From a virus, in IMG/VR virus record IMGVR_UViG_3300047494_000258, positions 1 to 63,334 of that record: a stretch of DNA of 63,334 bases. The stretch is one strand, 5' to 3'. Position 1 is the stretch's first letter; each line of letters starts with the position of its first letter. Under the pieces are notes generated by a model. That model did not search any database. It was not told where the DNA came from and saw nothing but the letters and a program-made list of their open reading frames with translations. Position numbers and translations under genes: made by a program. Positions 38,282 through 62,324 of this stretch are shown piece by piece.

Positions 38282-38694
38282 TTCTTGACGAACACCGTAA
38301 AGCCCTGCGGATAGACATCGAGCAGCAGCCCTGCTCGGCTTGGATGGGGGTCGTGGACCATCTTGTCAGCGAACCAGACGGTGTCATGCAGGGCCGGGCC
38401 TCGCGATGTGTTCCCGCAACGCAGATAGTGGAATGGCCACCTCAAAGCCCAATCCTCCGCCGCGCAATCTGATTCGTAGAAGATGGCGACATAACCACGA
38501 GGTTCTAGCCAAGCCTGCAAGCGATTGATCCATGGAAGAATGCCGTTCTCATCTGGCGCCTCTTCGCCGCTATGGCAGAAGTGAGGAACCGCATGCGGAG
38601 GCAGATCGAAGACGGTCGCAACGCAGCAACGGCAGCAATCACCCCAGACCCCGTTGTCAGGGTCATGTATCAATGTCATGTCTGCCGGCGTCAT
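38278..38694 (-). CDS. Putative C39/papain-fold cysteine-peptidase-like protein (copy 2)
   Basis: 138 residues. GDCCRCC (Cys20 in GDC), His103 and Asp115 in HDPHPSR, with PHFCHSGEE and HYLRCGNTSRGP between. Same order and spacing as the protein at 2,419-2,919. It has two extra Cys near the first. Location between dnaB and the PAPS-reductase-like gene, away from lysis, argues against a simple lysis role for the family. Confidence 0.6.
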   Translation of the reverse strand: MTPADMTLIHDPDNGVWGDCCRCCVATVFDLPPHAVPHFCHSGEEAPDENGILPWINRLQAWLEPRGYVAIFYESDCAAEDWALRWPFHYLRCGNTSRGPALHDTVWFADKMVHDPHPSRAGLLLDVYPQGFTVFVKK

Positions 38695-39917: not shown

Positions 39918-42900
39918 GCTGCCAGCTCCTCCGATGCGAACAGATCTGGCATCGCCATTTCTCGAGCAGCAGCCTCGCAATACGTCACACCGTCGAGGAA
40001 ATAGCGATTCGACAGTTCGATCCCGTAGCCTCGGCGCTTCAGCATCATGGCCCGGTATGGGACTGTCATGAGACCCCCGAACGGATCGAGCACCAGCTCG
40101 CCCGGCATCGTCCACTGAGCGATCGCGCGGTCAGCGATATCGAACTGCATCGGGCATAGATGCATTTCGCGCCCCTTGACCGACTGAGCGCCGTTGAGGG
40201 TCAACATCCGAGTGATATCGCTCCAAACTTCGTCGCTCCAGGACTGCGGCTGCAGGAGCATAAATCCGCTAGGCAGCATCCCCTGCGTTTCAAGATGCTC
40301 TGCGATTCTGACGTGATGCTCGAAGTCATAGGTCTCTTCAAGGCTGTACTGCTTGAACATTTTGAAGATGGCGTCATGCGGCATGCCGTCGAGTTCTTCA
40401 GGCTGCAGGAGTCGATTGCCAGAGGACCTGGTGAAGGCGTGGGCGTCAGTCTGCCACCGGCTGCGGGTGTATTCAGCCTTGCTCTTAACCACTGGCAGAT
40501 CGGCGTAGCTCTTCTCAGTGCTACTAGGCGGCTTGCGGAAGATCAACAGGTACTCAGGCATGCCGACACCCATCTTGGAGCCGTCCTTGCACTGCTCGGT
40601 CCACCCCAGGCGGTATGTCTGATTGTTCTCGCGCACCACGTCCGTGACGATGGTCTTCATGCCCATATAGGCGAAGCCGTGCCGGGTGTAATGCTCAATG
40701 CAGCGCGCGTGAAATGGATACACAGTCTGGAAGCCGAGGCCTGTCATGCCACCAGGAACAATGCGGTCCTTGACGTGGATCGCGGCGAGACGGCCTGGCT
40801 GCAGCACCTTGAGCAGGTTTGGCGTCAGGAAATCCATCTGCGCGAAGAAATGCTGGTTGTTATCTGTATGGCCGAAGTCAGCGTAGTTGGGGCTGTACTC
40901 GTACTGTGTGGCGAACGGAATGCTGGTCAGAATCAGCCCGACCGAGTTTTCTTCCATGCGCGCCGTCTCAAGCACGCAGTCGTTATTGACACAGGTAAAT
41001 CCATCACCGCTGACCTCGACGCGCTCGACACCAAGTGCGCGTGTCAGTTGCTCCATCACCCCGGCCTGTGACAGGCCGTACTTCTTGATAATTTCCGTCA
41101 TCTTCGCCGCCATTTCTTCGTGCTGAGCCCACTTCCGCTCGAGATCGCGGCGGACCTTTCGTTCTGCTTCGGTGTAGATAAGATCGATGCGCACAGGCTT
41201 CGTCTGTAGGAAGCGCTGGATGCGGTGAACCGCCTGGATGAAATCGTTGAACTTAAAGCCGATGCCGAGGAAGATGGCCCAAGAGCAGTGGCGTTGAAAG
41301 TTGCAACCGCTGCCCGCAATGACCGGCTTCGCCGCAAGTTCCTGGATGCGCCCCTCGCTGAAATCAATGATCGCTGTCTCGCGCTCATCGAGATCCTGTG
41401 AGCCGTAGACACTAGTCATGCCAGTCATGCGCTCGACAGACGGAACCTGCAGGGTCGGAAGCGCTTCAAGGATGACGAGGTTGCGACTCTTAGAGCGACC
41501 GCAATTCGTCCAACCGGCCTGTTTAAAGCAATAGCCTGGATTAGCGCTCGCGACTTTCTTTTCGTTAACGTAGGTATATAGCCGCGCGTCTGGCCAGCGT
41601 TGCCACGCGATCGCCATCGCTTCCTTGATCAGATCTGAGGAAAGGATTGGACCTTCGTTGCGAAATATCGCGCAGTTAATTCCCTGCTGCCCACTATCGT
41701 CGATGAACTTCCGCCAGACGAAGAGGGCCTTGCGGTCTCGCGTCAAAAGAACCGTCTTGAAACCAGGACCGGCGAAGCGATCGCGTTCTCGGCCGTCCTT
41801 GTATGGAAGAGCGCTGTAGTGACGTTCAAACAGCGCTAGACCGTCCGGGTTGCCATCTTGCAGCTCTTCCCAATGATTCCAGCGGGCCCGCGGAAGCGAT
41901 GCCTCTAACGCGTGGCGCTCTGCTTCCAAGTCATGCCAGATCAACCGATGCGCGTCAGGATCTTCGGCTCGTAGTTCCAACATCTTTGCGATGCGGGCGC
42001 CCAGGCTGTCCCTCTTCTCGCGCGAGGCCTCTACGATCCCGATCGCTTCGGGCTTGAACATCCGGCCCTGCCCCCAGAACTCCTGGCCAGCATCACTGTG
42101 ATCGCTGGGTAATTCGTGCCAACGAACGTCGAGCGGCGGCAAAGCATAGCCTGCGTCACTGAATCCAAGGTCACTCGGCCGCTGGACGAACAGAGCCCAG
42201 CTGGAGCACCAGAGCCAGAACTCGTCGACCTTGTGTTCATGGATGGTGAGCTGATCCGCCTTCTCACTATTGCGCTTGAAGAACCGAGTCTTCGCCTGGC
42301 CAACATCCATAATCCCAAGGAATACGCTGTAGGCCAGAAGCTCGATAAACTCGTTCGGACTGGGTGTGGCCGTGGCCACAAAGCGATACTGCACACCCGC
42401 GCTACGCTCGCGACTGTCCATTCGCTTGTAGTCACCCGCAAACAGCCCCATGAACTCACGGAATGTTTTTGTGCCACCGAAGCCGCGCAAGCAGCTCGCT
42501 TCATCGAGGCTGGCTACGACGAAGTGCCGAGGATCCAACTTGCCGTCACGGACCGTCTCGTAGTTGGTCAGGTAGATGCCGGCCGGATCGTCGCATTCCT
42601 CGATCGAGCGGATGAACTTGATCTTTATCCCCAGGAGAGCAGCGTCGCGAATGAACTCCTGCCGAACGCCAAGGGGAATAACGATGATCCCCATCCCCGC
42701 CACCTTCGTAAGGATGATGCGGATAATCTCGAGTTGAATGACGCTCTTGCCTAGCCCGAAGGCGGCAAAGATCGCTCGCCGGCCGCCACGTACCGCCCAG
42801 CAGACGATGGCGACCTGGTGCGGCTTGAGCAGAGGATTTACCTCGCTCGGATCGCAGGGGAACCCAGCCTCACTGGCCAGTTCCACTTTCGCCTTTAGGA

Positions 42901-42919
42901 ACGACAGATAGGCGTCCAT
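39914..42919 (-). CDS. SF2 helicase fused to N-type DNA methyltransferase
   Basis: 1001 residues from ATG 42919 (TGATG with the upstream stop). The N-terminal half is a helicase: GLGKS at 55-59, DEAS at 139-142, TATPSPN at 183-189, and HRIQRFLQTKPVR near 620. The C-terminal third is a DNA amino-methyltransferase: TSIPF near residue 666 takes the place of the (D/S)PPY motif, and LDPFGG near 944 with MLKRRGYGIELS binds AdoMet. This order (catalytic before AdoMet motif) is the beta class. Similar helicase-methylases act in phage anti-restriction (as DarB of P1). Confidence 0.85.
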   Translation of the reverse strand: MDAYLSFLKAKVELASEAGFPCDPSEVNPLLKPHQVAIVCWAVRGGRRAIFAAFGLGKSVIQLEIIRIILTKVAGMGIIVIPLGVRQEFIRDAALLGIKIKFIRSIEECDDPAGIYLTNYETVRDGKLDPRHFVVASLDEASCLRGFGGTKTFREFMGLFAGDYKRMDSRERSAGVQYRFVATATPSPNEFIELLAYSVFLGIMDVGQAKTRFFKRNSEKADQLTIHEHKVDEFWLWCSSWALFVQRPSDLGFSDAGYALPPLDVRWHELPSDHSDAGQEFWGQGRMFKPEAIGIVEASREKRDSLGARIAKMLELRAEDPDAHRLIWHDLEAERHALEASLPRARWNHWEELQDGNPDGLALFERHYSALPYKDGRERDRFAGPGFKTVLLTRDRKALFVWRKFIDDSGQQGINCAIFRNEGPILSSDLIKEAMAIAWQRWPDARLYTYVNEKKVASANPGYCFKQAGWTNCGRSKSRNLVILEALPTLQVPSVERMTGMTSVYGSQDLDERETAIIDFSEGRIQELAAKPVIAGSGCNFQRHCSWAIFLGIGFKFNDFIQAVHRIQRFLQTKPVRIDLIYTEAERKVRRDLERKWAQHEEMAAKMTEIIKKYGLSQAGVMEQLTRALGVERVEVSGDGFTCVNNDCVLETARMEENSVGLILTSIPFATQYEYSPNYADFGHTDNNQHFFAQMDFLTPNLLKVLQPGRLAAIHVKDRIVPGGMTGLGFQTVYPFHARCIEHYTRHGFAYMGMKTIVTDVVRENNQTYRLGWTEQCKDGSKMGVGMPEYLLIFRKPPSSTEKSYADLPVVKSKAEYTRSRWQTDAHAFTRSSGNRLLQPEELDGMPHDAIFKMFKQYSLEETYDFEHHVRIAEHLETQGMLPSGFMLLQPQSWSDEVWSDITRMLTLNGAQSVKGREMHLCPMQFDIADRAIAQWTMPGELVLDPFGGLMTVPYRAMMLKRRGYGIELSNRYFLDGVTYCEAAAREMAMPDLFASEELAA

Positions 42920-43071
42920 CAACGGTCCAGCCATGTCAGGCAGGTGGTCATGGACCGCATCACTGCCGTTCCCAGCCACGCGAAGAAATAGCCAAGCGAG
43001 CCGATCGCACCAATGGCAGCGAGTGCAATGGTGTACCCAATTGCGGTTAAGAACGCGCGAAGAGCCTTCAC
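42919..43071 (-). CDS. 50-residue single-TM protein
   Basis: GTG 43071 (GTGA overlap with the upstream stop). FLTAIGYTIALAAIGAIGSLGYFFAWLG makes a single transmembrane helix with small residues. Ends in TGATG with the helicase-methylase. Translational coupling to both neighbours supports it. Function unknown. Confidence 0.6.
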   Translation of the reverse strand: MKALRAFLTAIGYTIALAAIGAIGSLGYFFAWLGTAVMRSMTTCLTWLDR

Positions 43072-43223
43072 GACCGGGCCCCCGCGTTGCTCCATGCATC
43101 GGCAATGATCGCGGCTATGAGCATAAAGACGCAAAACACCGCGCACGCAGCTATCGCGAACGCGAGATACAGCCCCGTCAGAATCATTCCGATGACTGCG
43201 AATAGAAAGTAGAGAACCTTCAC
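43068..43223 (-). CDS. 51-residue small membrane protein
   Basis: Starts at GTG 43223 (GTGA with the upstream stop) and stops at 43068. YFLFAVIGMILTGLYLAF and AACAVFCVFMLIAAII are two hydrophobic stretches. Same start mode and size as the next gene; the two may act as a pair. Too short for routine gene finding. Function unknown. Confidence 0.6.
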   Translation of the reverse strand: MKVLYFLFAVIGMILTGLYLAFAIAACAVFCVFMLIAAIIADAWSNAGARS

Positions 43224-45442: not shown

Positions 45443-46240
45443 ATGCCACTATCCATCGTCGACATCCGCAGGGGTAACCTCCGCCACTACGTCAAGGAGA
45501 TGGGAGGCTCGCGCGAATTCATCGCTAAGTACGCCCACTTATACGACGGCACGCTCTCGGACTCCTACTTGAGCCAATTGCTTAGCGGAAAGAGTTCCTT
45601 CGGCGCGCAGACAGCTAGGAAATTGGAAATCGCTATGGGACTAGCGGTAAACGCACTGGACCATGAGCCGACCTTCAGGAAGAACGCGTTGATGGACAAT
45701 CTGCTCAATCGGCAGGTGGTGTCCAGGATTCCTCATATAGCCAGTGAAAATAGCTACTCCTCGCTCCATCCGATCCTCGCTTGGGAACACCCTGATGATT
45801 TGCCCGAAGGCGAATATGTTCAAATCCCAAGGCTAGAGATTCAGCTGTCTGCTGGCCATGGCAGCGATCAAATTGAGATTGAGTTCGTGAAGCAACAGCC
45901 TCAGGCGTTCCGTACAGAGTGGATCAGAAAGAAGCGCCTCAAGCCAGCGAAGCTGGCATGCATGTATGCCAGCGGTGATTCAATGGAAGATCGAATCTTC
46001 GACGGCGATTCCCTGGTGATCGACACAGGGGATATAACTGTTGTAGACGGCCGCGTGTATGCGCTCTGGTATGACGGAGGTGAGCGTGTCAAGCGCCTGT
46101 ATAGGAGGCCTGGCGGCGGCCTGCTCATTCGAAGTGACAATGAGCGCAAATATCCAGAAATCATTCTCACTGCGGATGAAGCGGAGCACGTTCGTATCAT
46201 AGGCAGAGTCGCCCAGGTGTCAGGAGATCAGGGGCTATGA
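45443..46240 (+). CDS. CI-type repressor with LexA/S24 autocleavage domain
   Basis: 265 residues. The N-terminal ~70 residues (FIAKYAHLYDGTLSDSYLSQLLSGKSSFG) are a helix-turn-helix DNA-binding domain. The C-terminal half has Ser180 in SGDSME and Lys217 in ERVKRLY, the catalytic dyad of S24 peptidases, and an Ala137-Gly138 (LSAGHG) as the likely RecA-stimulated cleavage site. Maintains lysogeny by binding the TTTAGT-type operators; SOS damage should release it. Followed by a lipoprotein gene with ATGA overlap. Confidence 0.92.
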   Translation: MPLSIVDIRRGNLRHYVKEMGGSREFIAKYAHLYDGTLSDSYLSQLLSGKSSFGAQTARKLEIAMGLAVNALDHEPTFRKNALMDNLLNRQVVSRIPHIASENSYSSLHPILAWEHPDDLPEGEYVQIPRLEIQLSAGHGSDQIEIEFVKQQPQAFRTEWIRKKRLKPAKLACMYASGDSMEDRIFDGDSLVIDTGDITVVDGRVYALWYDGGERVKRLYRRPGGGLLIRSDNERKYPEIILTADEAEHVRIIGRVAQVSGDQGL

Positions 46241-46950
46241 GAGCCTTAACAACCTCATGTGTTTTTGCGCTGGTAGTCGCCGCCTGTTCCGACGACTCGC
46301 ATCAGACCAACACGCCCGTTGAATCTCCGACGCCAGCCACCACCGCAGCCGTTCACAAAGACGCCGATTCTCCGACCCAAATTACCAGACCGGCCGCACG
46401 ACCAGCATCCGCCAAAGAATGGAAGTCGTTGCAAGACTACGTCTCAGCGGAATGGACGATTGCCCACAAAGAGGGTCTAGCACACGAGGCTCTAATGGCG
46501 TCGATGAGCAAGGCATACCGGCACCAGGACGTGGATGGTGTCGCCGATGCAATGGAGCTTTACCGGTCCACGCTGAATAAACTCGCTGAACAGAGCGACA
46601 AATTGATTGCCCCAGATATTGCCAACGAAGATACCCAAAGATACTTGGAGGCGGCAACGGGTGCTCTTGCTGCTTCGGATTTAGTGGAGATGACAAAGAC
46701 TGCTGCACTGCTTGGTGGATTCAACGGAACGCGGAAACAACCGACAGACGAAGAAATCGAACGCCTTACCCAAGAGGAAAACATGGAGATGCTGAAGGCA
46801 GTCCTCGCGTTTCAGCTCGTCTACCAGAACTACGGCTACACGCTCGACGACATTGATGTTTCGACGTATCGCATAAAACCGAAGGCGAAGCCGAGCGCCA
46901 TCGCGACATTAGTTGAGCGATTCGACACCATAAAAACAGCCTCGAACTGA
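46237..46950 (+). CDS. Lysogeny-expressed lipoprotein of unknown function
   Basis: 237 residues with a short signal peptide and lipobox LVVAAC (Cys17), then a Thr/Pro-rich linker and a helical domain (EWKSLQDYVSAEWTIAHKEGL, EALMASMSKAYRHQDVDG). The start is fused to the CI stop by ATGA, and a terminator follows, so it is transcribed with the repressor in the lysogen. Phage lipoproteins expressed this way often block infection by related phages. No homologue recognised; exclusion role is inference. Confidence 0.75.
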   Translation: MRALTTSCVFALVVAACSDDSHQTNTPVESPTPATTAAVHKDADSPTQITRPAARPASAKEWKSLQDYVSAEWTIAHKEGLAHEALMASMSKAYRHQDVDGVADAMELYRSTLNKLAEQSDKLIAPDIANEDTQRYLEAATGALAASDLVEMTKTAALLGGFNGTRKQPTDEEIERLTQEENMEMLKAVLAFQLVYQNYGYTLDDIDVSTYRIKPKAKPSAIATLVERFDTIKTASN

Positions 46951-47491: not shown

Positions 47492-47959
47492 ATGAACTCA
47501 CTTGTTGAAAACGCTTTAGCCGAAATTCGCACCAAGCAAGCCGATCTGGCCGCCAGCATTGCGGCTGTCGAATCGCGCTTCAAGGCTTCGCAAATGATCT
47601 TCATTCCGGAGACGGGGCTAGAAATCTTCGCGGGTGAGCACTATGCCGGTGTCGTGATCGGCGAAAGCGGTGTTGCTAGTCACCACCTAATCTTGATGGC
47701 GGGTGAGAAGGAAAGCATCAACTGGACAGACGCAGTCGATTGGGCAAAGTCGATCGGCGGTGAGTTGCCAACACGCCAAGAGCAAGCGCTGCTGTACGCA
47801 AACCTAAAGAGCCAGTTCACAGAAAACTACTACTGGTCTGGCGAGCGTCATAAGGACGAGCGCTACGCGTGGTACCAGTACTTCCACGACGGCAACCAGT
47901 ACGGCTACAACGTCTACTACACCCTCCGGGCCCGCGCCGTCCGCAGATCAGTCATTTAA
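47492..47959 (+). CDS. DGR variable protein 1 (C-type-lectin-fold target)
   Basis: 155 residues: N-terminal coiled coil (about 5-35), then a domain with GEHYAGVVIG, HHLILMAG and GGELPTRQEQALLYANL, and the variable end AWYQYFHDGNQYGYN..LRARAVRRSVI. The domain is the DUF1566/formylglycine-enzyme-like fold used by DGR targets. A VR occupies codons 126-153. Ten residues' codons differ from the template at A positions. No signal peptide or TM. It is a paralogue of target 3 and lies about 8.6 kb from the template. Confidence 0.88.
   Translation: MNSLVENALAEIRTKQADLAASIAAVESRFKASQMIFIPETGLEIFAGEHYAGVVIGESGVASHHLILMAGEKESINWTDAVDWAKSIGGELPTRQEQALLYANLKSQFTENYYWSGERHKDERYAWYQYFHDGNQYGYNVYYTLRARAVRRSVI
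47867..47950 (+). repeat. DGR variable repeat VR1
   Basis: 84 bp aligned without gaps to the template at 56,557. Ten differences fall on template adenines (codons read TAC, CAC, GAC, GGC, ACC in place of AAC). No other change until the constant end, where AGA replaces AAA. The CTCCGGGCCCGCGCC block is the GC-rich initiation (IMH) part. An 8-bp inverted repeat (TAACCCTT/AAGGGTTA, 47,957-47,982) follows just after. Confidence 0.95.
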
Positions 47960-47988
47960 CCCTTCAATCCTTTTAAGGGTTACCTGCC

Positions 47989-48246
47989 ATGTTCCGTCAT
48001 CGTCCACTTACCACAACCCGAATCGTCATCGCGTCGATTCTTGGCCTTCTAGGCGCCCAGACTTTCGAGTCGCTTTCTCAACCATTCACGCCACCGTCAC
48101 GACCCCGTTATCACAGCAGCAAGCGTCGCCATCAAAACGCGGCCGGCAAGTATCTCAAAAACTACGGCGGCCGCTACAGCCATGTGCTCACCGAATACTG
48201 CACCGAGCAAAACCTTCGTCGCATGCGTCAAGGAAAGCGTAAGTGA
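47989..48246 (+). CDS. Small basic early protein
   Basis: 85 residues, Arg/His-rich: MFRHRPLTTTRIVIASILGLLG has a short hydrophobic span, then PRYHSSKRRHQNAAGKYLKNYGG and EQNLRRMRQGKRK. Its AAGGG ribosome site lies in the right arm of the inverted repeat after VR1. Possibly membrane-anchored and nucleic-acid binding. Function unknown. Confidence 0.5.
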   Translation: MFRHRPLTTTRIVIASILGLLGAQTFESLSQPFTPPSRPRYHSSKRRHQNAAGKYLKNYGGRYSHVLTEYCTEQNLRRMRQGKRK

Positions 48247-48512
48247 ACGCCCGGGCCAACTTCATCTGGGACGCACCGCTTGAGCTGGATGGTGCGCAAG
48301 CGCATGTACTTTGCGAAGCATTGGATCGGCTGACAGAGCCACGTGATCGCGCAAGAGACATCGCTGATCGTATCGGACCGATTAACCGTACAGAAGCCGC
48401 TGATCTTCTGCGCGCCATCACGATTTCACTGAAGACCGATTTGCCCGATCGCGCAGAACTTTGCGAAGCAATCGGTGACATCGCGTTCGAACTACTGACG
48501 GCCGCGCGATGA
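48243..48512 (+). CDS. Small acidic helical protein
   Basis: 89 residues: MNARANFIWDAPLELDGAQAH, then RDRARDIADRIGPINRTEAADLL. No family recognised. ATG lies in a GTGA-type overlap with the preceding gene. Likely part of the early operon. Confidence 0.5.
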   Translation: MNARANFIWDAPLELDGAQAHVLCEALDRLTEPRDRARDIADRIGPINRTEAADLLRAITISLKTDLPDRAELCEAIGDIAFELLTAAR

Positions 48513-48736
48513 GCTCTGCGCGCAAAGACTGGTTGATCGCGACATTTGTTGTGTTTGCGTTCCTTATCGGGTGCTCAAAAATCAGTCCGGAGGACTGCGA
48601 GCACACCACTGAAACCCAACAGGCTGTCACGGCGCTTGGAGAGGAAGCACGCATGTCTTATCCACTCGCAACGCACTGTGCAGTCGAGCCAGACGGCGTC
48701 GAAATCTGCACCCAAACCGAAAGGAATTTGAAGTGA
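48509..48736 (+). CDS. Small lipoprotein
   Basis: 75 residues with signal peptide and lipobox FLIGC (Cys22), followed by KISPEDCEHTTETQQAV. Three further Cys follow in the mature part. Third small lipoprotein-type gene in the phage. Role unknown. Confidence 0.55.
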   Translation: MSSARKDWLIATFVVFAFLIGCSKISPEDCEHTTETQQAVTALGEEARMSYPLATHCAVEPDGVEICTQTERNLK

Positions 48737-49734
48737 ATGCCCTCGTAGAGAACCAATTCAACACTGGCGGACTGTCCACGCAGTCGTCAGCTGGCGTAGC
48801 TCAGGTTGAGCAGCGCGAACAGGCTGAAGTGCAATCCATGGTGATCATGGCTAAGCGCTTCCCTCGCAACCCGCTCAAAGCGATGGACAACATCATCAAT
48901 GCGTTCACCCGCACGATGCTGGCCGAGCAAAGCCAATACCAGTTCAGCAAGGGCGGCTCAGAAGTCGCAGGCCCTTCGATTCGCTCGGCTGAAGCCATTG
49001 CTCAGCAGTGGGGGAACATTGACTGGGGTTTCCGCGAAGTCTCGCGTGGAGTCGGCGCCAATGGCGTGCCGTTCTCAGAAGTTGTGGCCTATGCCTGGGA
49101 CCTTGAAACCGTCAGCCGCCGCGCGTTGCAGTTCATCGTGCCTCACTGGCGCGATACCAAGAGCGGCGGCTACCGCATCAAGGAAGAACGCGACATCTAC
49201 GAGCTGGTGGCAAATATGGCTCAGCGCCGCGTGCGCGCCTGCCTGCTTGGCGTAATCCCCGGAGACGTGACGGAACAGGCAATGAAACAGGCGGACGTGA
49301 CGCTTCGTGCCGCCGCAGACACGTCACCTGAGGCCATGCAGAAGATGGTCGATGCGTTTGGCATCTTCGAAGTGACAAAAGAGCAGATCGAGAAGCGGAT
49401 TCAACGTCGGCTAGATGCCATTCAGCCGGCGCAGGTTGTCACCTTGAAACGCATCTACGTGAGCTTGCGGGACGGTATGAGCACAGTCGCTGACTGGTTC
49501 GAAGTCGCCGGAGAAGGCGAAGTCGGTACCGGACAAGCCGAGGCGAAGCCTCCCTACCCGCAGGACAAGTTCGAAAAGAACCTGCCCGGCTGGCGCGATC
49601 TGATCGCCAAAGGAAACAAGACCGTCGAACAGATCATCGCTACAGCGGAATCGAAACACCCGCTCACTGATGATCAAAAGAAAGCGATCGCCGCGCCTGG
49701 TGCTCAGTCCGACCAAGACCAATCAGTTGAATAG
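48733..49734 (+). CDS. Recombination-associated, annealing-protein-like
   Basis: 333 residues from GTG 48733 (GTGA overlap). FPRNPLKAMDNIINAFTRTMLAEQSQYQFSKGGSEVAGPSIRSAEAIAQQWGNIDWGF and DIYELVANMAQRRVRACLLG form the core. It is followed at once by a YqaJ-type exonuclease, the position of a Red-beta/RecT-like annealing protein. I see no decisive RecT motif, so the function is inferred from the gene pair. Confidence 0.6.
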   Translation: MNALVENQFNTGGLSTQSSAGVAQVEQREQAEVQSMVIMAKRFPRNPLKAMDNIINAFTRTMLAEQSQYQFSKGGSEVAGPSIRSAEAIAQQWGNIDWGFREVSRGVGANGVPFSEVVAYAWDLETVSRRALQFIVPHWRDTKSGGYRIKEERDIYELVANMAQRRVRACLLGVIPGDVTEQAMKQADVTLRAAADTSPEAMQKMVDAFGIFEVTKEQIEKRIQRRLDAIQPAQVVTLKRIYVSLRDGMSTVADWFEVAGEGEVGTGQAEAKPPYPQDKFEKNLPGWRDLIAKGNKTVEQIIATAESKHPLTDDQKKAIAAPGAQSDQDQSVE

Positions 49735-49750
49735 CTCCAGGGAGCGAGTG

Positions 49751-51301
49751 ATGGAACGTCAAGTCCACAACCTTGTGCAGGGCACCCCAGAATGGGATGC
49801 CTTCCGCGCCTGTCATGACGGAGCAAGCGAAGCCGCGCCTGTCATGGGTCTTTCCAAGAAGGCGACGCGCACAGAGATTCTTCGACTCAAAGCGCTCGGC
49901 TTGGCGAAAGAGTTCAGCGAATACGTTCAGAAGAACATATTAGCCAAGGGCCACGCCGTCGAGGCACTCGCACGCCCGATCATTGAAGAACTCATAGGCG
50001 AAGACCTGTACCCAGCAACGTACAGCTACGGGCGGCTTTCCGCATCTGTCGACGGTATCAACATGGCCGCGACGCTTGCTATGGAGCACAAGCAGTTCGA
50101 AAAGGAACTGTTTGCCTCGGTCAAAGCCGGAGTGCTTCCAGAGGAGCACTGGCCACAGACCCAACAGATTCTACTGGTCACCGGTGCAGAAAGGCTCATT
50201 TTCGTCGTATCGGACGGCACGGCCGAGAACATGGCGTACCTGTATGTCGAGCCCGACGAGGCCTATCAACAGCGCATCGTTGCTGCTTGGAAGCAATTCA
50301 ACGAAGACGTTGCGAACTACGTTCCAGAAACGCCTGTCGTCCAGGCCGTCGGTGCACCAATCATGGCTCTTCCCGCCTTGAATGTCCGCATCCGAGGCGA
50401 GGTCGTGGTCAGCAACCTCCCCATCTATGAGGAGGCAGCGCTGGCTTTCATTGCAAAGATTCCAACGCTCCTTGAGACCGACCAGGACTTCGCGAATGCC
50501 GCGAAGACCATCAGTTACTTCGAAGAATCCGAAAAGGACCTGGAGGCCGTCAAGAAGCGCGCTCTTGAAGAGACCGTAGCGATTGATCAACTGTTCAAGA
50601 CAATCGACGTCATCAAGGAATCGATGCGCGCCAAGCGCCTCGAACTGGACAAGATCGTCGAGGCCCGCAAAGTTTCAATCCGGGGCGACGTGATCAGGAG
50701 CGGAAAAGATCGTCTGGCGATGCATATCGCAACTTTGAACGCAAGGCTCGGCGGCAACATCATGCCAACCATCGATGCGGACTTCGCGGGTGCCATCAAG
50801 GGCAAGCGCACGGTGGTCAGCCTTCACAACGCCGTCGACACTGAGCTTGCCAATAAGAAGATCGAAGCCAGCGAGATCGCAGACCGCATCGAGATCAATC
50901 AGCGCGTCTTCCGCGTCCTGGCAGCCGATCACACCGCTTTGTTCCCAGACCTGAATGCATTGCTGATCAAACTGGCAGATGACTTCCGCAATGCAGTCCA
51001 GCAGCGCATCAAGGAATTTAACGATCAGCCGATCGTCGTGGCCCCACTTGCGGCGCCCGCTGAGCCACCGGCCCGTGGAATGTTCACTTCCCCGGTGGCC
51101 GAGGTTACTTCGCCAGCAGCAGTCTTTGCAACCAGCAAACCGGCGACCACCGAGCTGCCATGGCACGAGCAGTCGCACCAGTCCGTTCTCGAGAACATCT
51201 ATCTATTCGCCTCGGACCGGAAGTACTCGGACGCCGATGCACGCGAAACGATTCTCAAGATTGTCACGCCTTTTGTGGTTCGCGAGAAAAAAGCAGCCTA
51301 A
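49751..51301 (+). CDS. YqaJ/lambda-exonuclease-family nuclease with C-terminal helical domain
   Basis: 516 residues from ATG 49751 with CAGGGAG upstream; a longer in-frame ATG at 49,670 overlaps the preceding gene. LVQGTPEWDAFRACHDGASEAAPVMG, GHAVEALARPIIEELIG, SYGRLSASVDG and PQTQQILLVTG are the exonuclease core of YqaJ enzymes. The C-terminal ~290 residues are a coiled-coil (DUF1351-like) extension. Works with the annealing-type protein upstream in phage recombination. Confidence 0.85.
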   Translation: MERQVHNLVQGTPEWDAFRACHDGASEAAPVMGLSKKATRTEILRLKALGLAKEFSEYVQKNILAKGHAVEALARPIIEELIGEDLYPATYSYGRLSASVDGINMAATLAMEHKQFEKELFASVKAGVLPEEHWPQTQQILLVTGAERLIFVVSDGTAENMAYLYVEPDEAYQQRIVAAWKQFNEDVANYVPETPVVQAVGAPIMALPALNVRIRGEVVVSNLPIYEEAALAFIAKIPTLLETDQDFANAAKTISYFEESEKDLEAVKKRALEETVAIDQLFKTIDVIKESMRAKRLELDKIVEARKVSIRGDVIRSGKDRLAMHIATLNARLGGNIMPTIDADFAGAIKGKRTVVSLHNAVDTELANKKIEASEIADRIEINQRVFRVLAADHTALFPDLNALLIKLADDFRNAVQQRIKEFNDQPIVVAPLAAPAEPPARGMFTSPVAEVTSPAAVFATSKPATTELPWHEQSHQSVLENIYLFASDRKYSDADARETILKIVTPFVVREKKAA

Positions 51302-51408
51302 CCGATCAATGGGCGAAACGTTGAGCCCTCGCCTCTCCTGTCAGTGGACGCACCGACGGGAACGCGAGGGCAAGAGACAAAGTAGCCCACCATTTTTGAA
51401 AGAGTGAA

Positions 51409-51726
51409 ATGCCAAACATCCCAATGACAGAAGTCGAATCCGACAATATCTTTGCTATCGGCTACGACGCCGAGATCAAGACGATGTACGTCCGGTTTAA
51501 GAGTTGGCCAAAGAAAGATGCCGCTGGCGTGCAACAGCCTGGCGTCCCGACGTCGCTCTATAGCTATGAGCACGTCGATGCTGCCACTTATCGCCGGGTC
51601 ACAACGCGCTTCATTGAAGACAGCGTCACCAAGTCCTTCAATGGGCTCGTGAAGGCTCATCCGACGAAATTCCCATACACCAAGCTCGAATCGGCTCCTG
51701 GCGTGCCCGCGACGGTGGCTGCGTGA
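51409..51726 (+). CDS. KTSC domain protein
   Basis: 105 residues. VESDNIFAIGYDAEIKTMYVRF, SLYSYEHVDAATYRRV and KSFNGLVKAHPTKFPYTKLE match the KTSC domain, a short beta domain found in phage early genes with no established biochemical role. It ends 4 bp inside the methyltransferase gene. Confidence 0.75.
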   Translation: MPNIPMTEVESDNIFAIGYDAEIKTMYVRFKSWPKKDAAGVQQPGVPTSLYSYEHVDAATYRRVTTRFIEDSVTKSFNGLVKAHPTKFPYTKLESAPGVPATVAA

Positions 51727-53873
51727 ATCAAGACTCGCTTATCCGAGAAATCCGACACGGCCATCTATTTTGCGGGCTTGGTGGCGGCGCCAAGGGCTTT
51801 AATCGTGGCAAGGCGCGCGTTGGCAATACGACCGCTAAGTTCCGCTGCTTGGGCGGCATTGACGTCGACGCGGCCTCGATCCGTGACTTCGGGCGGCTCG
51901 CTGGCGTAGCGGGCACGGTGATGGATCTGTTCGATCGCGACCAATATGTCGCTTTCCACGGCCGCGAGCCTGCATCGCACTGGCGCGAGGCTATGCCGTC
52001 CGACATCGTCAAAGCGATGGGCAATGAGCGGCCCCACATCTGGTTCCTCTCGGCGCCCTGCAAGGGCTTCAGCGGCCTGCTTTCGGAAACCAAGTCCCTG
52101 ACCACCAAGTACCAGGCGCTTAACCGACTGACGCTGCGTGGCATCTGGCTGGCGCTAGAAGCCTACAAGGACGATCCGGTCGAAATGATCGTCTTCGAAA
52201 ATGTCCCTCGCATCGCGACGCGCGGCCGGCATCTGTTGGATCAGATTGTCGGACTGCTCAAGGCCTACGGCTACGCAGTCGCCGAAACGACGCATGACTG
52301 TGGCGAGCTCGGTGGATTGGCCCAGAGCCGCAAACGCTTCCTTCTGGTCGCTCGGCATCACGAGAAGGTGCCACCTTTCCTGTACGAGCCAGAGAAGCGA
52401 TCGCTTCGGGCCGTGGGCGACGTGCTCGGCCGCATGCCGATGCCAGGCGTGGGCGGACCAATGCACCGCATCCCGTCCCTGCAATGGAAGACATGGGTGC
52501 GCCTTGCGTTTGTCGAGGCGGGCTCCGACTGGCGGTCGCTGAACAAGCTGGCCATTCAGGACGGGTACTTGAGAGATTTCCTGATCGTGCCAGAAATGCA
52601 TCGCACCTCACTTGGCGTGAATGCTTGGGACGAGTCTGGTCCGACCATCACCAGCCGGGGCTTCCCTCTCAATGGTGCATTCTCGGTCGCCGATCCACGC
52701 CAAGTGGCGTTCAAGAACGGTTATGGCGTTATGGACTGGCAACAGGCATCCGGTGCCGTGGCTGGCGAGGCCGCGCCGTCCAATGGCCGCTACGCGATCG
52801 CTGATCCTCGGTTCAAGCAATCTGCTGAATGGCATGACGGACACGCCTATGGAGTCACAGCGTGGGGCGAACCTTCTTCGACGGTCACCGCGCGCGGCAA
52901 CCCGGGCAGCGGTTACTTCACGGTCCAGGATCCTCGAGTCGATGGAGTGCGGCACAGCAATGTCTACCGCATCGTCGCCTGGGACGAGGTTGGCCGTTCA
53001 GTAACGGCTGGCAGCGGACCGAGCGCCGGAGGAATTGGCGTTGCCGACCCTCGGGGTGGATCAGACCCAACACTGCTACACGGGAAGTATCGCGTCACAG
53101 ATTGGGAAGAGTCCAGTCGCGCAGTGATCGCAGGTGACGATAACGGCGCCTATGCCGTTGCTGATCCTCGGCCGTCGCAGCGCGAGGACTACAAGCAGAC
53201 CAAATATCGCGTCAATAGCTTCGATGAAAGCACTGGCTCAGTTATAGCTGCCTCGACCACCGGGAACGGCGCATTTGCTGTCGCAGATCCTCGCCCGGGC
53301 TACGGGCCATCGACGCACCACAATGTTTTGCATATGACAGAGTGGGATTCGACTGCAAAAACTGTCACGGGCAGCGGACATCCTGCAGGGGGTGCTCTAA
53401 GCGTCGCAGACCCTCGTCCGAACATTGACCGCTCGAAAGGTGATCACTACCTAACCGGCGGTCACTACGGCGTGTTGCCATGGGATGGTACGAGCGGGGC
53501 AGTATCGGCGTCCGCCAACCAAGACAACGGTCGCTGGTCAGTCGCCGATCCAAGGTTGCCGGAAGCAACCGACAAGGTCATCGCGATCATCCGCGCGCGC
53601 GACGGCACCTGGCATAGGCCGTTCACCACGCTAGAACTCGCTGCCTTGCAGAGCTTGGTCGATCCAGAGGAATACCTCGAACTAGATGGCCTGTCTGACA
53701 GCGCCTGGCGCGAGCGGATCGGCAACGCTGTGCCACCTGAGGCTGCGGAAGCTATCGCAGGCGTCATGGGCACCACACTGCTTCTAGCGTGGGCTGGCGA
53801 GACGTTCACTCTGTCAGCGCAGCCAATCTGGGTTCGTCCGATGGCTGTCGCACTGAGCGTGCGAGGCAACTGA
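51723..53873 (+). CDS. DNA cytosine-5 methyltransferase with eight ADPR-type repeats
   Basis: 716 residues. Motif I (LFCGLGGGAKGF, 15-26), the PC motif with Cys113 in APCKGFSG, ENV at 159-161, and QSRKRF at 201-206 identify a C5 methyltransferase. Between about residues 295 and 615, where the target-recognition region is expected, lie eight ~40-residue repeats each ending in (V/I/Q)-(A/x)-DPR. Motif X (RERIGNAVPPEAAEAIA) closes the fold. Each repeat contains W-x-(D/E)-x3-(T/V), like the canonical pre-motif IX segment. Confidence 0.9.
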   Translation: MNQDSLIREIRHGHLFCGLGGGAKGFNRGKARVGNTTAKFRCLGGIDVDAASIRDFGRLAGVAGTVMDLFDRDQYVAFHGREPASHWREAMPSDIVKAMGNERPHIWFLSAPCKGFSGLLSETKSLTTKYQALNRLTLRGIWLALEAYKDDPVEMIVFENVPRIATRGRHLLDQIVGLLKAYGYAVAETTHDCGELGGLAQSRKRFLLVARHHEKVPPFLYEPEKRSLRAVGDVLGRMPMPGVGGPMHRIPSLQWKTWVRLAFVEAGSDWRSLNKLAIQDGYLRDFLIVPEMHRTSLGVNAWDESGPTITSRGFPLNGAFSVADPRQVAFKNGYGVMDWQQASGAVAGEAAPSNGRYAIADPRFKQSAEWHDGHAYGVTAWGEPSSTVTARGNPGSGYFTVQDPRVDGVRHSNVYRIVAWDEVGRSVTAGSGPSAGGIGVADPRGGSDPTLLHGKYRVTDWEESSRAVIAGDDNGAYAVADPRPSQREDYKQTKYRVNSFDESTGSVIAASTTGNGAFAVADPRPGYGPSTHHNVLHMTEWDSTAKTVTGSGHPAGGALSVADPRPNIDRSKGDHYLTGGHYGVLPWDGTSGAVSASANQDNGRWSVADPRLPEATDKVIAIIRARDGTWHRPFTTLELAALQSLVDPEEYLELDGLSDSAWRERIGNAVPPEAAEAIAGVMGTTLLLAWAGETFTLSAQPIWVRPMAVALSVRGN

Positions 53874-54889
53874 TGGCCGAGAATTCATCCATCGAATGGT
53901 GCGACCACACCTTCAACGGCTGGATAGGCTGTAGTCGCGTCGGTCCGGGTTGCGATAACTGCTATGCCGCGGTGAGCACCCCGGTACGCGTGGCCGGGAT
54001 CAAATGGGGCCCGGGAGAAGATCGTGTTAGGACCAAGCCATCGAATTGGGCAAAGCCGCGTCAATGGGAGCGGAACGCCGAGTCCTTTATGGCGCAACAC
54101 GGTCGTCGTCAGCGGGTGTTTTGTTCAAGCCTCGCAGATGTTTTCGACAACGAAGTGCCGACCCAGTGGCGCACCGATCTACTGCGGCTGATTCTGGAAA
54201 CTCCGAGTCTCGATTGGCTGCTGCTCACCAAGCGGATTGGAAATGCTAGGCGAATGCTTGACGACGCAGTAACGGTCGATGGTCGTCTGATGGACGCGAG
54301 CGACCGTTATCGGCCCCTGCCGAATGTCTGGATCGGGGCGACAGTGGTTAACCAGGATGAGGCCGACCGAGACATACCGAAGCTACTTGAAGTTCCAGCG
54401 GCAATTCGCTTTCTCAGCATTGAGCCAATGCTAGGCGCGATCGATCTTTCTCGATTCTTGTGGCAATGCTGCGGGAACTATCAGGATGGTGCTGAGCATA
54501 TGGGAAGCCGCGAGGGTCCCGTTTGCTGCGGGAATCCCGAAACAAAGGACTTGCTTCACTGGATCATCGTTGGGGGCGAAAGCGGTCCTAAAGCACGCCC
54601 GGCTCATCCAAATTGGTTTAGAAGCCTGCGTGACCAGTGCGCGCAAGCCGAGGTGCCGTATTTGTTCAAGCAGTGGGGTGAGTGGGCTCCTCATCGTGCT
54701 GGTGCCGGTGGCGATGAGGGCGGCGACCTGCGTCGAGGCCACGTCAGATATTTGGAGGGCGATGGACGTAGACCAGATGGCCACTTCCGCAAAGGAGATG
54801 CCGCCGTCGCACGCATCGGCAAGAAGGCATCCGGCCGGCTCATAGACGGCATCGAACACAACGGTTTCCCGCAGTCATTCCATAACTAG
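53873..54889 (+). CDS. Gp37/Gp68 (DUF5131) phage protein
   Basis: 338 residues from ATG 53873 (TGATG with the methyltransferase stop). Cys10, Cys20, Cys27 and Cys30 (CSRVGPGCDNCYA) form a metal or Fe-S cluster site, then FCSSLADVFDNEVPTQWRTDLLRLI and WIIVGGESGPKARP. The Gp37/Gp68 family resembles radical-SAM or deazaflavin-type enzymes, but its activity is unknown. Lies between a DNA methyltransferase and the DGR, so a nucleic-acid-modification role is possible. Confidence 0.85.
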   Translation: MAENSSIEWCDHTFNGWIGCSRVGPGCDNCYAAVSTPVRVAGIKWGPGEDRVRTKPSNWAKPRQWERNAESFMAQHGRRQRVFCSSLADVFDNEVPTQWRTDLLRLILETPSLDWLLLTKRIGNARRMLDDAVTVDGRLMDASDRYRPLPNVWIGATVVNQDEADRDIPKLLEVPAAIRFLSIEPMLGAIDLSRFLWQCCGNYQDGAEHMGSREGPVCCGNPETKDLLHWIIVGGESGPKARPAHPNWFRSLRDQCAQAEVPYLFKQWGEWAPHRAGAGGDEGGDLRRGHVRYLEGDGRRPDGHFRKGDAAVARIGKKASGRLIDGIEHNGFPQSFHN

Positions 54890-54898
54890 GAGCACGAA

Positions 54899-55504
54899 AT
54901 GTCAGCAGTCTTAAAACAAGATTTTCCCGTCGCAGTTGGCGACCCCTTTGAGGGCGGCTATTTTGCAGGACTTTTCGGTGTTTCGGGAAGGGTGGCTGCG
55001 CTCATCGTGGCGCCAAAGGCTACCGGCGAACTGAAAGCGACATCCCTCTCGCGCAACTACCCCGCGCCGCGCGCATCCTCGATCAACGACGGGATTGTCA
55101 ATACGCTTGTTCTTGAGAAAGAGAGCGAAATCGCGTCCTGGGCACTCGGTCTAGAAATCGCAGGCCATAAGGATTGGTATATCCCCAGTATCGATGAGCT
55201 AGAGATTCTCTATCGAGCCTTCAAGCCAACAACCCGCGAGAACTTTATCTACAACCGGTCGGGCTTAAATTTATCGGCGCTTCCCGCTACACCAGCTTAC
55301 ACGCTGGCCAACCCTCTTCAGACATCGATCGATTTGTTCAGAGCTGGTAACACAGAGGCGTTTGAAGACGATTGGTACTGGAGTTCGACCGTCTTGGAAG
55401 ACCCGAACTATGCGTGGTACCAGAACTTCTACAACGGCTACCAGGGCCACTACCACGTCTACTACCACCTCCGGGCCCGCGCCGTCCGCAGATCGTTTCT
55501 TTAA
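54899..55504 (+). CDS. DGR variable protein 2 (C-type-lectin-fold target)
   Basis: 201 residues, AGGAG-type ribosome site upstream. It lacks the coiled coil of targets 1 and 3, beginning with a beta-rich part (GGYFAGLFGVSGRVAALIV) and then KDWYIPSIDELEILYRAF and DDWYWSSTVL, the DUF1566 pattern. The VR covers the last 28-30 codons, AWYQNFYNGYQGHYH...RAVRRSFL. Ten VR codon changes all fall on template adenines. No signal peptide or TM. Confidence 0.88.
   Translation: MSAVLKQDFPVAVGDPFEGGYFAGLFGVSGRVAALIVAPKATGELKATSLSRNYPAPRASSINDGIVNTLVLEKESEIASWALGLEIAGHKDWYIPSIDELEILYRAFKPTTRENFIYNRSGLNLSALPATPAYTLANPLQTSIDLFRAGNTEAFEDDWYWSSTVLEDPNYAWYQNFYNGYQGHYHVYYHLRARAVRRSFL
55412..55495 (+). repeat. 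DGR variable repeat VR2
   Basis: 84 bp gaplessly aligned with the template; ten substitutions at template adenines, none elsewhere before the constant IMH block. AAC codons become TAC, GGC or CAC. A 5-bp stem (AACTC/GAGTT, 55,503-55,526) lies just after the stop, similar in place to that after VR1. Confidence 0.95.
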
Positions 55505-55529
55505 CTCTTAGTCCTTTCAGGGAGTTCGC

Positions 55530-56009
55530 ATGACTCAGGCAACACTCGAAGCTATCCAGGCGAAGCGTGACGAAGTTATCGGCCACGTCGCTGAACTGGA
55601 CAAGTTGATTGAATCTTTCAAAACAGCGCCGCCAGTGCGCATCAGCCTTGATATGAACGTTCCGCTGCAGCCGGGCGAAATGTACGCCGGCCTGATCCTG
55701 CACAAGGGACTGCGCGAGGGGCATCACATCATCTTACTGCCAGGCGATCACGATGCATCGAACTGGGCTGATGCCAAGAAATGGGCAGCATCCATCGGTG
55801 GCGATCTACCGTCTCGGCCAGAACAAGCGCTTCTGTTCGCTGACTTCCGCGATGAGTTCAAGAAAGAGGCCTATTGGTCCAACACGGCGTATGAGCACGC
55901 CAGTGGCTACGCGTGGTTCCAGAGCTTCAACGGCGGCACCCAGAACTTCAGCCACGTCAACAACTACCGCCGGGCCCGCGCCGTCCGCAGATTAGTTTTT
56001 AGTCTTTAG
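55530..56009 (+). CDS. DGR variable protein 3 (C-type-lectin-fold target)
   Basis: 159 residues, GGGAG ribosome site. N-terminal coiled coil (about 5-33), then GEMYAGLILHKG, HHIILLPGDHD and GGDLPSRPEQALLFADF, similar throughout to target 1. The variable end reads AWFQSFNGGTQNFSHVNN...RARAVRRLVFSL. VR3 occupies codons 128-155. One non-adenine change (T to G) also occurs. No signal peptide or TM. Confidence 0.88.
   Translation: MTQATLEAIQAKRDEVIGHVAELDKLIESFKTAPPVRISLDMNVPLQPGEMYAGLILHKGLREGHHIILLPGDHDASNWADAKKWAASIGGDLPSRPEQALLFADFRDEFKKEAYWSNTAYEHASGYAWFQSFNGGTQNFSHVNNYRRARAVRRLVFSL
55911..55994 (+). repeat. DGR variable repeat VR3
   Basis: 84 bp aligned to the template. Ten changes at template adenines, including the TAC codon (to TTC), plus a CTC-to-CGC change at 55,969 that is not an adenine. 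The end reads AGA TTA where the template has AAA TCA, so the IMH-proximal end is less conserved than in VR1 and VR2. Confidence 0.95.
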
Positions 56010-56024
56010 TTCTTTTTCACCGGC

Positions 56025-56384
56025 ATGGCACTTCACACCGAACTGACGATTTACAAGGACGCTTCCGCGCTCTTCGCCCTTGCAATGAAAGTGGCCACGA
56101 ACATGCGTCGAGATTCTAAGCAGCTCATCGGCGGCAAGTTTCGAGACGAATGCATGGAGATCCTTCACGCGGTTGCAGACGCAAATAGCGTTTTCGGCCA
56201 AGAGAAGGTCGCCTTCATCGACACTTTGCACAAGCGGCTCCGCGGCGTAGAGATCCTGTTGCGGCTGTCCCGCGATCAAGGGCTCGTTCCAACGAGCCAG
56301 TACTCGCAGGCGATCCAGCTAACCCAAAGCATCGGGCGTCAGGCGGGTGGATGGCGCCGTAAAGCACTTGCGCCCGCTTCATGA
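56025..56384 (+). CDS. avd: DGR accessory variability determinant (Avd)
   Basis: 119 residues, basic four-helix-bundle pattern: ASALFALAMKVATNMRRDSKQ, FRDECMEILHAVADANS, TLHKRLRGVEILLRLSRDQG and the end QSIGRQAGGWRRKAL, which resembles the C-terminal helix of the Bordetella phage Avd. Avd binds the reverse transcriptase and the template RNA. Its stop overlaps the reverse-transcriptase frame (ATGA at 56,381). Identified by size, composition and place. Confidence 0.8.
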   Translation: MALHTELTIYKDASALFALAMKVATNMRRDSKQLIGGKFRDECMEILHAVADANSVFGQEKVAFIDTLHKRLRGVEILLRLSRDQGLVPTSQYSQAIQLTQSIGRQAGGWRRKALAPAS

Positions 56385-57751
56385 TGGTTAAGGCCAACAT
56401 GACTGAGCGTTTCATTGATCTGGTCGTGCCCCTGGCTCACAAGGCCACGGACAGGCGCATTGCAGATACCGCTGGCAGTAGCCAGGTCAGGTCTAGCGCA
56501 GTTTCTCGACTGGCTGGCGATCGCCTCCGGTCGGGCGACGTGAATAGCACGATGTGGCGTGGTACCAGAACTTCAACAACGGCAACCAGAACAACAACAA
56601 CGTCAACAACAACCTCCGGGCCCGCGCCGTCCGCAAATCAATCCGCGCGCCCCCATGCCGGTTTTTCTTTTCAGGACCTCGTGCAGGCCTATCTGGACTG
56701 CCGGCGCACCAAGCGCAATTCCGATAGCGCCCTCGCCTTCGAGGCCGATCTCGAGCGCAACCTGTCAGAACTGTACGAGGAACTGATCAGCGGCCGATAT
56801 CAACCGGGCCGAAGCATCTGCTTTGTCATCACCAAGCCAAAGCCGCGGGAAGTATGGGCGGCGCCATTTCGCGATCGTATCCCGCACCACCTGCTCTACG
56901 ACGCGATATCGCCCCTTTTCTACCCGTCTTTCATCGCCGACAGTTGCGCCTGTATCCCTGGCCGCGGTACGCACTACGCAGCGCGTCGGCTCGAAGCCAA
57001 GGTGCGAAGCATCACACAGAACTGGACGCGTCCCGCGTTCTACCTGAAATGCGACCTGGCTAACTTTTTCGTCTCGATCGACAAGGACATCGTTTGGAAA
57101 TTGCTGGCCAAGCGAGTGCCTGATCCGGCGCAGTTGGCGCTGGCTCGCACCATCCTATTCAACGATCCGCGCATTGGCGCCGAGATCAGGTCCACCGGAG
57201 CCAAGATGGCACGGGTACCGGCTCACAAAAGCTTACTCAACCAGGTCGATGGGAAAGGCCTGCCGATTGGGAATCTCAGTTCCCAGTTCTTCGCCAACAT
57301 CTACCTCAACGAGCTCGACCAGTTCGTAAAGCATCGGATCGGCTGCAAGCATTACATCCGGTATGTGGATGACTTTATCCTCCTGGACGAATCGCCTGCG
57401 CGCCTGAACGAAGCTCTGGCCAGAATCGATGCTTTCCTACCTGAGACGCTCAACGTTCGCCTGAACCCAGCCAAGACCATTGTGCAGCCCGTGGCGCGTG
57501 GTGTCGATTTTGTTGGCCAAGTTATCAAACCATTCCGCAGGACAGTGCGTCGCCGCACAGCGATCGCCTCCTTGAGCCGACTTGAGGATCTGCCGGCCGA
57601 GGATGTCCTGGCCTCTGCCAATAGCTACTTCGGGATCTTCCGGCAAGCAAGTGGCCACCGGGACCAAGTAAGGCTCGCCAACGCGCTCAGAAAGCGTGGA
57701 CACAGCATCAATTCATCAATCACCAAAACATATCGAAGGGCCAAGGCATGA
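56381..57751 (+). CDS. DGR reverse transcriptase with N-terminal extension overlapping the template
   Basis: 456 residues if started at ATG 56381 (ATGA overlap with avd). The catalytic part begins near residue 95 (FSFQDLVQAYLDCRRTKRNSD); GLPIGN at 293-298 and YVDD at 328-331 (IRYVDDFILLD) are reverse-transcriptase core motifs; the end is the DGR-type thumb. Residues ~58-87 are read from the template repeat in another frame, giving a Thr/Arg-rich linker. Alternative in-frame starts: ATG 56,552 or GTG 56,681. Either the template is part of the coding region or the true start is later. Confidence 0.92.
   Translation: MMVKANMTERFIDLVVPLAHKATDRRIADTAGSSQVRSSAVSRLAGDRLRSGDVNSTMWRGTRTSTTATRTTTTSTTTSGPAPSANQSARPHAGFSFQDLVQAYLDCRRTKRNSDSALAFEADLERNLSELYEELISGRYQPGRSICFVITKPKPREVWAAPFRDRIPHHLLYDAISPLFYPSFIADSCACIPGRGTHYAARRLEAKVRSITQNWTRPAFYLKCDLANFFVSIDKDIVWKLLAKRVPDPAQLALARTILFNDPRIGAEIRSTGAKMARVPAHKSLLNQVDGKGLPIGNLSSQFFANIYLNELDQFVKHRIGCKHYIRYVDDFILLDESPARLNEALARIDAFLPETLNVRLNPAKTIVQPVARGVDFVGQVIKPFRRTVRRRTAIASLSRLEDLPAEDVLASANSYFGIFRQASGHRDQVRLANALRKRGHSINSSITKTYRRAKA
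56557..56640 (+). repeat. DGR template repeat (TR)
   Basis: 84 bp with 11 AAC codons and one TAC in the VR reading frame, spaced by constant TTC, GGC, CAG and GTC codons. The 3' 24 bp are GC-rich (CTCCGGGCCCGCGCC) ending AAATCA, versus AGATC in the variable repeats. Every variable-repeat difference in VR1 and VR2, and ten of eleven in VR3, falls on an A of this template. It lies between avd and the catalytic part of the reverse transcriptase. Confidence 0.96.
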
Positions 57752-62270: not shown

Positions 62271-62318
62271 GGACTGTTAATCCGCAGGTCCCTGGTTCGA
62301 GTCCAGGTCGGGGAGCCA
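62271..62318 (+). tRNA. tRNA-Asn 3' fragment (attR core)
   Basis: GGACTGTTAATCC (anticodon GTT loop) runs into CCTGG-TTCGAGT-CCAGG (T arm) and the acceptor strand TCGGGGA-G-CCA, ending at 62,318. The D-arm and 5' acceptor strand are absent: the sequence upstream (ATGGATGCTCAG) does not pair. So this is the 3' half of tRNA-Asn left by integration. The full tRNA should be at the other phage end. Confidence 0.88.
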
Positions 62319-62324
62319 AATTGG

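Follow-up and report, generated by a model that had tools for sequence, protein, structure and literature searches.

A three-target diversity-generating retroelement with an RT-15 leader RNA in an integrated temperate myophage

Introduction

Are the repeats in the viral record IMGVR_UViG_3300047494_000258 of the IMG/VR database those of a working diversity-generating retroelement (DGR), how is the RNA of this element built, and what may its variable products do? The stretch of DNA that we analysed (63,334 nt, hereafter the window) had been the subject of a sequence-only reading, which described a template repeat (TR), three variable repeats (VRs), a reverse transcriptase (RT) with a YVDD motif and an accessory variability determinant (Avd) in a temperate myophage, and proposed A-specific mutagenic homing to three receptor-like products. 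Results of our analysis indicate, with a probability of about 0.9, that the locus is a working DGR with several targets, of the same type as that of Burkholderia phage Magia, and that it is carried by an integrated temperate myophage.

Results

Template and variable repeats

The repeats of the window and the block associated with them are as follows.
47867-47950 (+): variable repeat VR1, at the 3' end of target gene 1; 11 differences from TR, all at template adenines
55412-55494 (+): variable repeat VR2; all differences from TR at template adenines
55911-55992 (+): variable repeat VR3; over 84 nt, 11 differences at template adenines and 2 others
56557-56640 (+): template repeat TR, partner of the three VRs; 84 nt, 29 adenines
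56613-56634 (+): A-free, GC-rich block of 22 nt at the TR 3' end (TR positions 57-78), similar to IMH* (IMH, initiation of mutagenic homing)

Over the 84 nt, 34 of the 36 differences between TR and the three VRs fall on template adenines, which make up 29 of the 84 TR bases (pooled hypergeometric P = 4e-16). When the count is restricted to the first 79 TR positions, VR1 and VR2 differ from TR at 10 positions each, all of them adenines, and VR3 at 10 adenines and one T; this total of 30 in 31, as well as the location of the four repeats, exactly reproduces what had been described earlier. In the reading frame of the targets, 27 of the 29 template adenines occupy codon positions 1 or 2, and TR comprises 11 AAC codons, each of which can be converted to codons for 15 possible amino acids and to no stop codon. 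This codon-position bias fits a diversification that avoids stops.

The A-free block is identical to that of TR in VR1 and VR2 and contains a single T>G change in VR3. Just past it, TR position 80 is A in TR and G in all three VRs, which fits an IMH/IMH* boundary, and the block behaves as expected of a putative IMH. No VR beyond these three was found across the whole 63-kb record.

Variation in related genomes

In three pairs of related elements (Cupriavidus pauculus prophages, P. aeruginosa phages phPA-G and Haboob, and phages Magia and QDWS), the TRs of which are identical or differ by one base, all 73 differences between VRs concern TR adenines, while the flanks of VRs differ at all bases. 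The same is true of 687 of the 705 differences between VRs of the same gene in a larger set of pairs, which share sequences and are not independent. The distant third VR, located about 7-10 kb from TR, varies likewise in relatives, which as a rule contain TR and 1-3 VRs with 0-1 non-A mismatch. The expectation that in related genomes the adenine positions of VRs vary, with the remaining positions and TR fixed, was borne out by these comparisons. Together with the repeats of the window they support A-specific mutagenic homing to three targets, and the DGR is evidently active, judging by the pattern of substitutions.

Two distinct prophage copies of the DGR, with similar templates and different VRs, are present in one genome (loci L225 and L228 of genome G144). 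At the L095/L096 loci, L095 retains RT without Avd or targets, and its RT-15 RNA, described below, is degenerate (35 bits).

Reverse transcriptase and Avd

The protein components of the element are encoded by two frames.
56025-56384 (+): avd, accessory variability determinant; phrog_3206 'Avd protein of DGR', E 3.7e-24
56381-57751 (+): open frame with the DGR RT; RVT_1, E 3e-14; phrog_1423, 1.5e-115

The RT contains IGNLSSQ at 57266, which matches the DGR motif [ILV]GxxxSQ, and YVDD at 57362. Its best PDB match is 8ub7, annotated as 'Reverse transcriptase', which we take to be the enzyme of Bordetella phage BPP-1. By its motifs, PHROG and PDB match, this RT is assigned as DGR-type. Weaker matches of Avd were to Pfam bAvd (2.6e-8) and NCBIfam Avd (2e-11), and a phmmer search of PDB with Avd gave no meaningful match. 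The repeats, RT and Avd listed in the sequence-only reading are all present, and what it overlooked were the RT-15 leader and the overlap of TR with the RT frame.

RT-15 RNA as the leader of the template

A known RNA family is located directly upstream of the template.
56368-56559 (+): RT-15 RNA (RF03018), putative structured 5' leader of the template RNA; 169.4 bits vs. gathering score of 82

The match to the Rfam family is full-length, overlaps the end of avd and stops at TR. In 20 of 20 loci picked by RT similarity, TR starts from 3 nt before to 6 nt after the RT-15 end. A search with the RNA only, over 399 genomes sampled at family level around C. pauculus, gave a second set of 27 above-cutoff loci, among which L233 is apparently a repeat of the L008 contig. 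A TR at the RT-15 end, accompanied by Avd, RT and A-specific VRs, is present in 26 of the 27, and the exception (L210) has kept RT-15 and lost TR and most of RT to inserted genes. Among 17 loci, 26 of the 49 RT-15 pairs change on both sides, and the covariation score of 0.339, as compared to 0.05-0.07 for slid partners, was not reached in any of 500 shuffles. Because TR sits at the end of RT-15 across loci and the leader covaries, we assign RT-15 as the covarying 5' part of the predicted template RNA in this DGR clade.

Analysis of the region 3' of TR and of the first RT codons showed strong folding in 3 of 17 loci (z about -3) and no signal across the loci in general. Synonymous conservation of the RT start is slightly raised, with a permutation p of 0.004 for the first 40 codons and no significance at 20 or 60. 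A structured spacer between TR and RT, such as that of BPP-1, was not found, and the RT motif starts 34-57 nt past TR in the relatives measured.

The RT reading frame crosses the template

In the window, the nearest canonical start before the conserved N-terminal RT motif is the ATG at 56552, which places TR inside the apparent RT coding sequence. The distance from the TR end to the RT motif is divisible by three in 41 of 41 measurable loci, in which it takes 11 lengths from 39 to 72. In locus L009, TR is read in a different frame, and in L158 an insertion separates TR from RT. Of the ATG, GTG and TTG codons that precede the motif, the last is located inside TR in 23 loci and upstream of TR in 16 (39 of 44 loci). 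Unless translation of these RTs starts at an uncommon codon, at least a portion of TR is probably translated. In the public annotation of Magia, the start of the RT gene already lies upstream of TR.

The 93-residue N-terminal extension of the RT open reading frame (ORF) was also considered as a conserved protein domain. This was ruled out for the RT-15 part, because in relatives this part contains in-frame stops and shifted frames and because the RNA covaries; for the TR part and the linker, the frame tests do not reject conserved coding.

A tentative proposal, which we consider somewhat more apt to fail than to hold, is that in this DGR clade a single RNA is both template and messenger, that RT-15 takes the role of the 3' spacer of BPP-1, that TR is translated as an N-terminal tail of RT, and that folding or copying of the template competes with RT translation on the same molecule. 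The last usable start codon of the window (56552) is located at the closing helix of RT-15, so the folding of RT-15 and the synthesis of RT would be mutually exclusive.

Target genes and the number of targets

The three VRs belong to three genes.
47492-47959 (+): target gene 1, ORF of 155 aa; predicted N-terminal helix and C-type-lectin (Lcl_C/DUF1566) domain
54899-55504 (+): target gene 2, 201 aa; Lcl_C domain
55530-56009 (+): target gene 3, 159 aa; aligns with target 1 and belongs to its family

Two of these genes adjoin avd and one is located 8.7 kb upstream. The Lcl_C match is over the curated cutoff in target 2 (E 6.7e-11) and under it in target 1 (E 1.5e-4) and target 3 (E 3e-4). Lcl_C (DUF1566) was the commonest Pfam domain among DGR targets in a survey (PMC6642488). 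The AlphaFold2 model of target 1 (pLDDT 92.8) places a C-type lectin after a long N-terminal helix, and its best PDB match is 8q4e, the C-terminal domain of Legionella Lcl; the less certain model of target 2 has the same best match. The N-terminal helix is predicted in two of the three small lectin products. The position of the VRs at the 3' ends of genes with a modelled C-type-lectin fold is that of VRs in DGRs. Neither a recognisable signal peptide nor a strongly hydrophobic N-terminus was detected in the targets.

The number of targets, which the sequence-only reading had implied to be rare, is not new: members of this family often have three VRs with one of the targets at a distance, and the DGR of Magia, which is arranged in the same way, has been published. 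Among the elements compared first, the window, L010, Magia and Cruim01 have three VRs, as do 11 of the 27 loci in the independent set. Multiple VRs have been described in 28.6% of surveyed DGRs (PMC6642488).

Carrier phage and neighbouring genes

The window encodes sheath, baseplate wedge, portal and terminase proteins, an S24-type repressor and a tyrosine integrase, beside which the 3' end of a tRNA-like gene is located. This combination of genes points to an integrated temperate myophage as the carrier in this IMG/VR contig, in agreement with the earlier description. No end repeat longer than 14 nt was found in the record, so the left prophage end, with its attachment site, probably lies outside it. 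A megablast search of phage records with the first 25 kb gave no match.

All targets are encoded in the arm between repressor and integrase, together with recombination genes and on the strand opposite to that of the late, structural genes; no VR is located in the tail region. This placement is common to myophages (the window phage, Magia and QDWS) and siphophages (Cruim01, Haboob and phPA-G; tail types by annotation). It speaks against an ordinary tail-fibre role of the targets, while leaving room for one.

The following neighbouring features were also observed.
39914-43105 (-): large ORF that by eye resembles a helicase fused to a DNA methylase; overlaps a PAPS reductase-like ORF at 38691-40115 (-)
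46237-46950 (+): lipoprotein-like ORF (MRALTTSCVFALVVAAC...) immediately after the repressor gene; possible lysogenic conversion or exclusion gene
51723-53873 (+): C5 cytosine methylase (Pfam DNA_methylase), the middle part of which contains about 8 degenerate tandem repeats (family D2) ending with 'ADPR/VADPR'
about 62290-62320 (+): 3' half of the tRNA-like gene adjoining the integrase gene; probable right attachment site, past which host DNA would follow

Discussion

The features described above may be brought together in the following way. A single transcript would span avd, the RT-15 leader, TR and RT, and its RT-15 part would fold. RT and Avd would copy TR to cDNA with errors opposite adenines, and the cDNA would replace the 3' ends of the three target genes; the A-free GC-rich block would serve to anchor it (IMH). 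Retrohoming by means of RT-dependent cDNA is assumed here by analogy to BPP-1.

The location of their genes in the recombination and integration arm suggests that the targets are, most likely, proteins of the early phase or of lysogeny. We give an even chance to the fuller proposal that they are such proteins, with a variable face that binds changing partners, and not ordinary parts of tail fibres; gene position is what suggests both the timing of their expression and their binding role. The designation of the targets as receptor-like is unproven, because they lie away from the tail genes, in an arm opposite to the structural genes, in phages of both tail types; they also have no recognisable signal peptide.

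In the classic tropism switching of the BPP-1 type, the three lectins would serve adsorption as virion components that are produced early and become attached to the tail or to one another. The C-type-lectin fold and the Lcl_C domain of the targets are compatible with such a role, in several DGR clades the majority of viral targets carry a tail-protein annotation (PMC8144416), and a change of host range was suggested by the authors of the Magia study. We nevertheless consider tropism switching unlikely, as the genes occupy the arm from repressor to integrase, oriented opposite to the late genes, and as phages of either tail type, contractile or non-contractile, carry the module; the sheath of the window phage has no tblastn match in Magia.

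Three points weigh against the functional DGR with early or lysogeny targets that we favour. The role of the targets is deduced from gene position, and products of an early arm can still enter the virion. The Avd matches are under the curated cutoffs in both Pfam and NCBIfam. Finally, diversification of the window element is judged from its own TR and VRs and from relatives, because no second isolate of the window phage was found, including by an exact 22-mer scan of IMG/VR.

The lack of such an isolate for comparison, as well as the existence of decayed relatives (L095, and L210 with its TR and most of RT replaced), would also be in line with a decayed or frozen DGR, the VRs of which are old relics that are no longer rewritten. 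This is improbable, as RT, Avd, RT-15, TR and the three open target genes are all intact in the window, and as an idle element would gather changes everywhere, whereas only 2 of the 36 differences are at positions other than A. Ordinary paralogy within a gene family, with an A bias due to chance or codon selection, would account for the targets being paralogous lectins, but it is already contradicted and can be dismissed, since the repeats have a counterpart outside the targets, located between avd and RT, the A bias has a P of 4e-16, and natural pairs differ at A only in VRs and at all bases in their flanks.

Taken alone, the three-target DGR of the window is a good but ordinary example of such elements. 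Less ordinary is the placement of a structured guide RNA and a template next to and inside the RT gene, and this RNA and reading-frame anatomy of the family is the part most worth follow-up. At the family level, RT-15 gains a place, as the probable 5' part of a DGR template RNA, in a layout where TR lies within the RT frame and where the 3' spacer known from BPP-1 cannot work in quite the same way. Phages that differ in their tails keep hypervariable lectins in the early or lysogeny arm, and one may ask what, besides host-attachment proteins, is diversified by the DGRs of phages.

Comparison with known systems

The closest described counterpart of the window element is the DGR of Burkholderia phage Magia (MT701587; PMC7883833), a temperate myophage with an RT about 60% identical and the same order of RT-15 leader, TR and avd; its VR genes, two beside avd and a third about 7 kb upstream, are in the recombination arm. 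The window phage differs from Magia in its structural genes and TR and in one other target type (target 2, 201 aa). The authors of the Magia study described two targets and suggested a change of host range (PMC7883833), and the depositors of the genome name genes 47 and 57 as the targets. Results of our analysis indicate that gene 46 of Magia (locus L159, 8164-8628), annotated as 'hypothetical protein', is a third one, with a VR that differs from the template at 11 adenines and at no other position.

The DGR of Bordetella phage BPP-1 has in common with the window element the Avd-TR-RT order, A-specific copying and a lectin-fold target gene, the 3' end of which holds VR with an IMH. In BPP-1, the spacer that separates TR from RT is structured; it recruits RT-Avd and serves to prime cDNA synthesis (PMC12875486). 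In the window, by contrast, the structured RNA is 5' of TR, no comparable 3' spacer is present and TR overlaps the RT frame; also, the BPP-1 target is a tail protein, while those of the window are three early-arm genes. Two-target DGRs of gut phages with tentaclins (PMC10743442) likewise have more than one lectin target per TR in one phage; one of their targets combines lectin and Ig domains, in contrast to the three small lectins of the window. RT-15 (RF03018), which is a stand-alone RNA family in Rfam, here ends at TR and is thus assigned as the 5' portion of the template RNA of a DGR.

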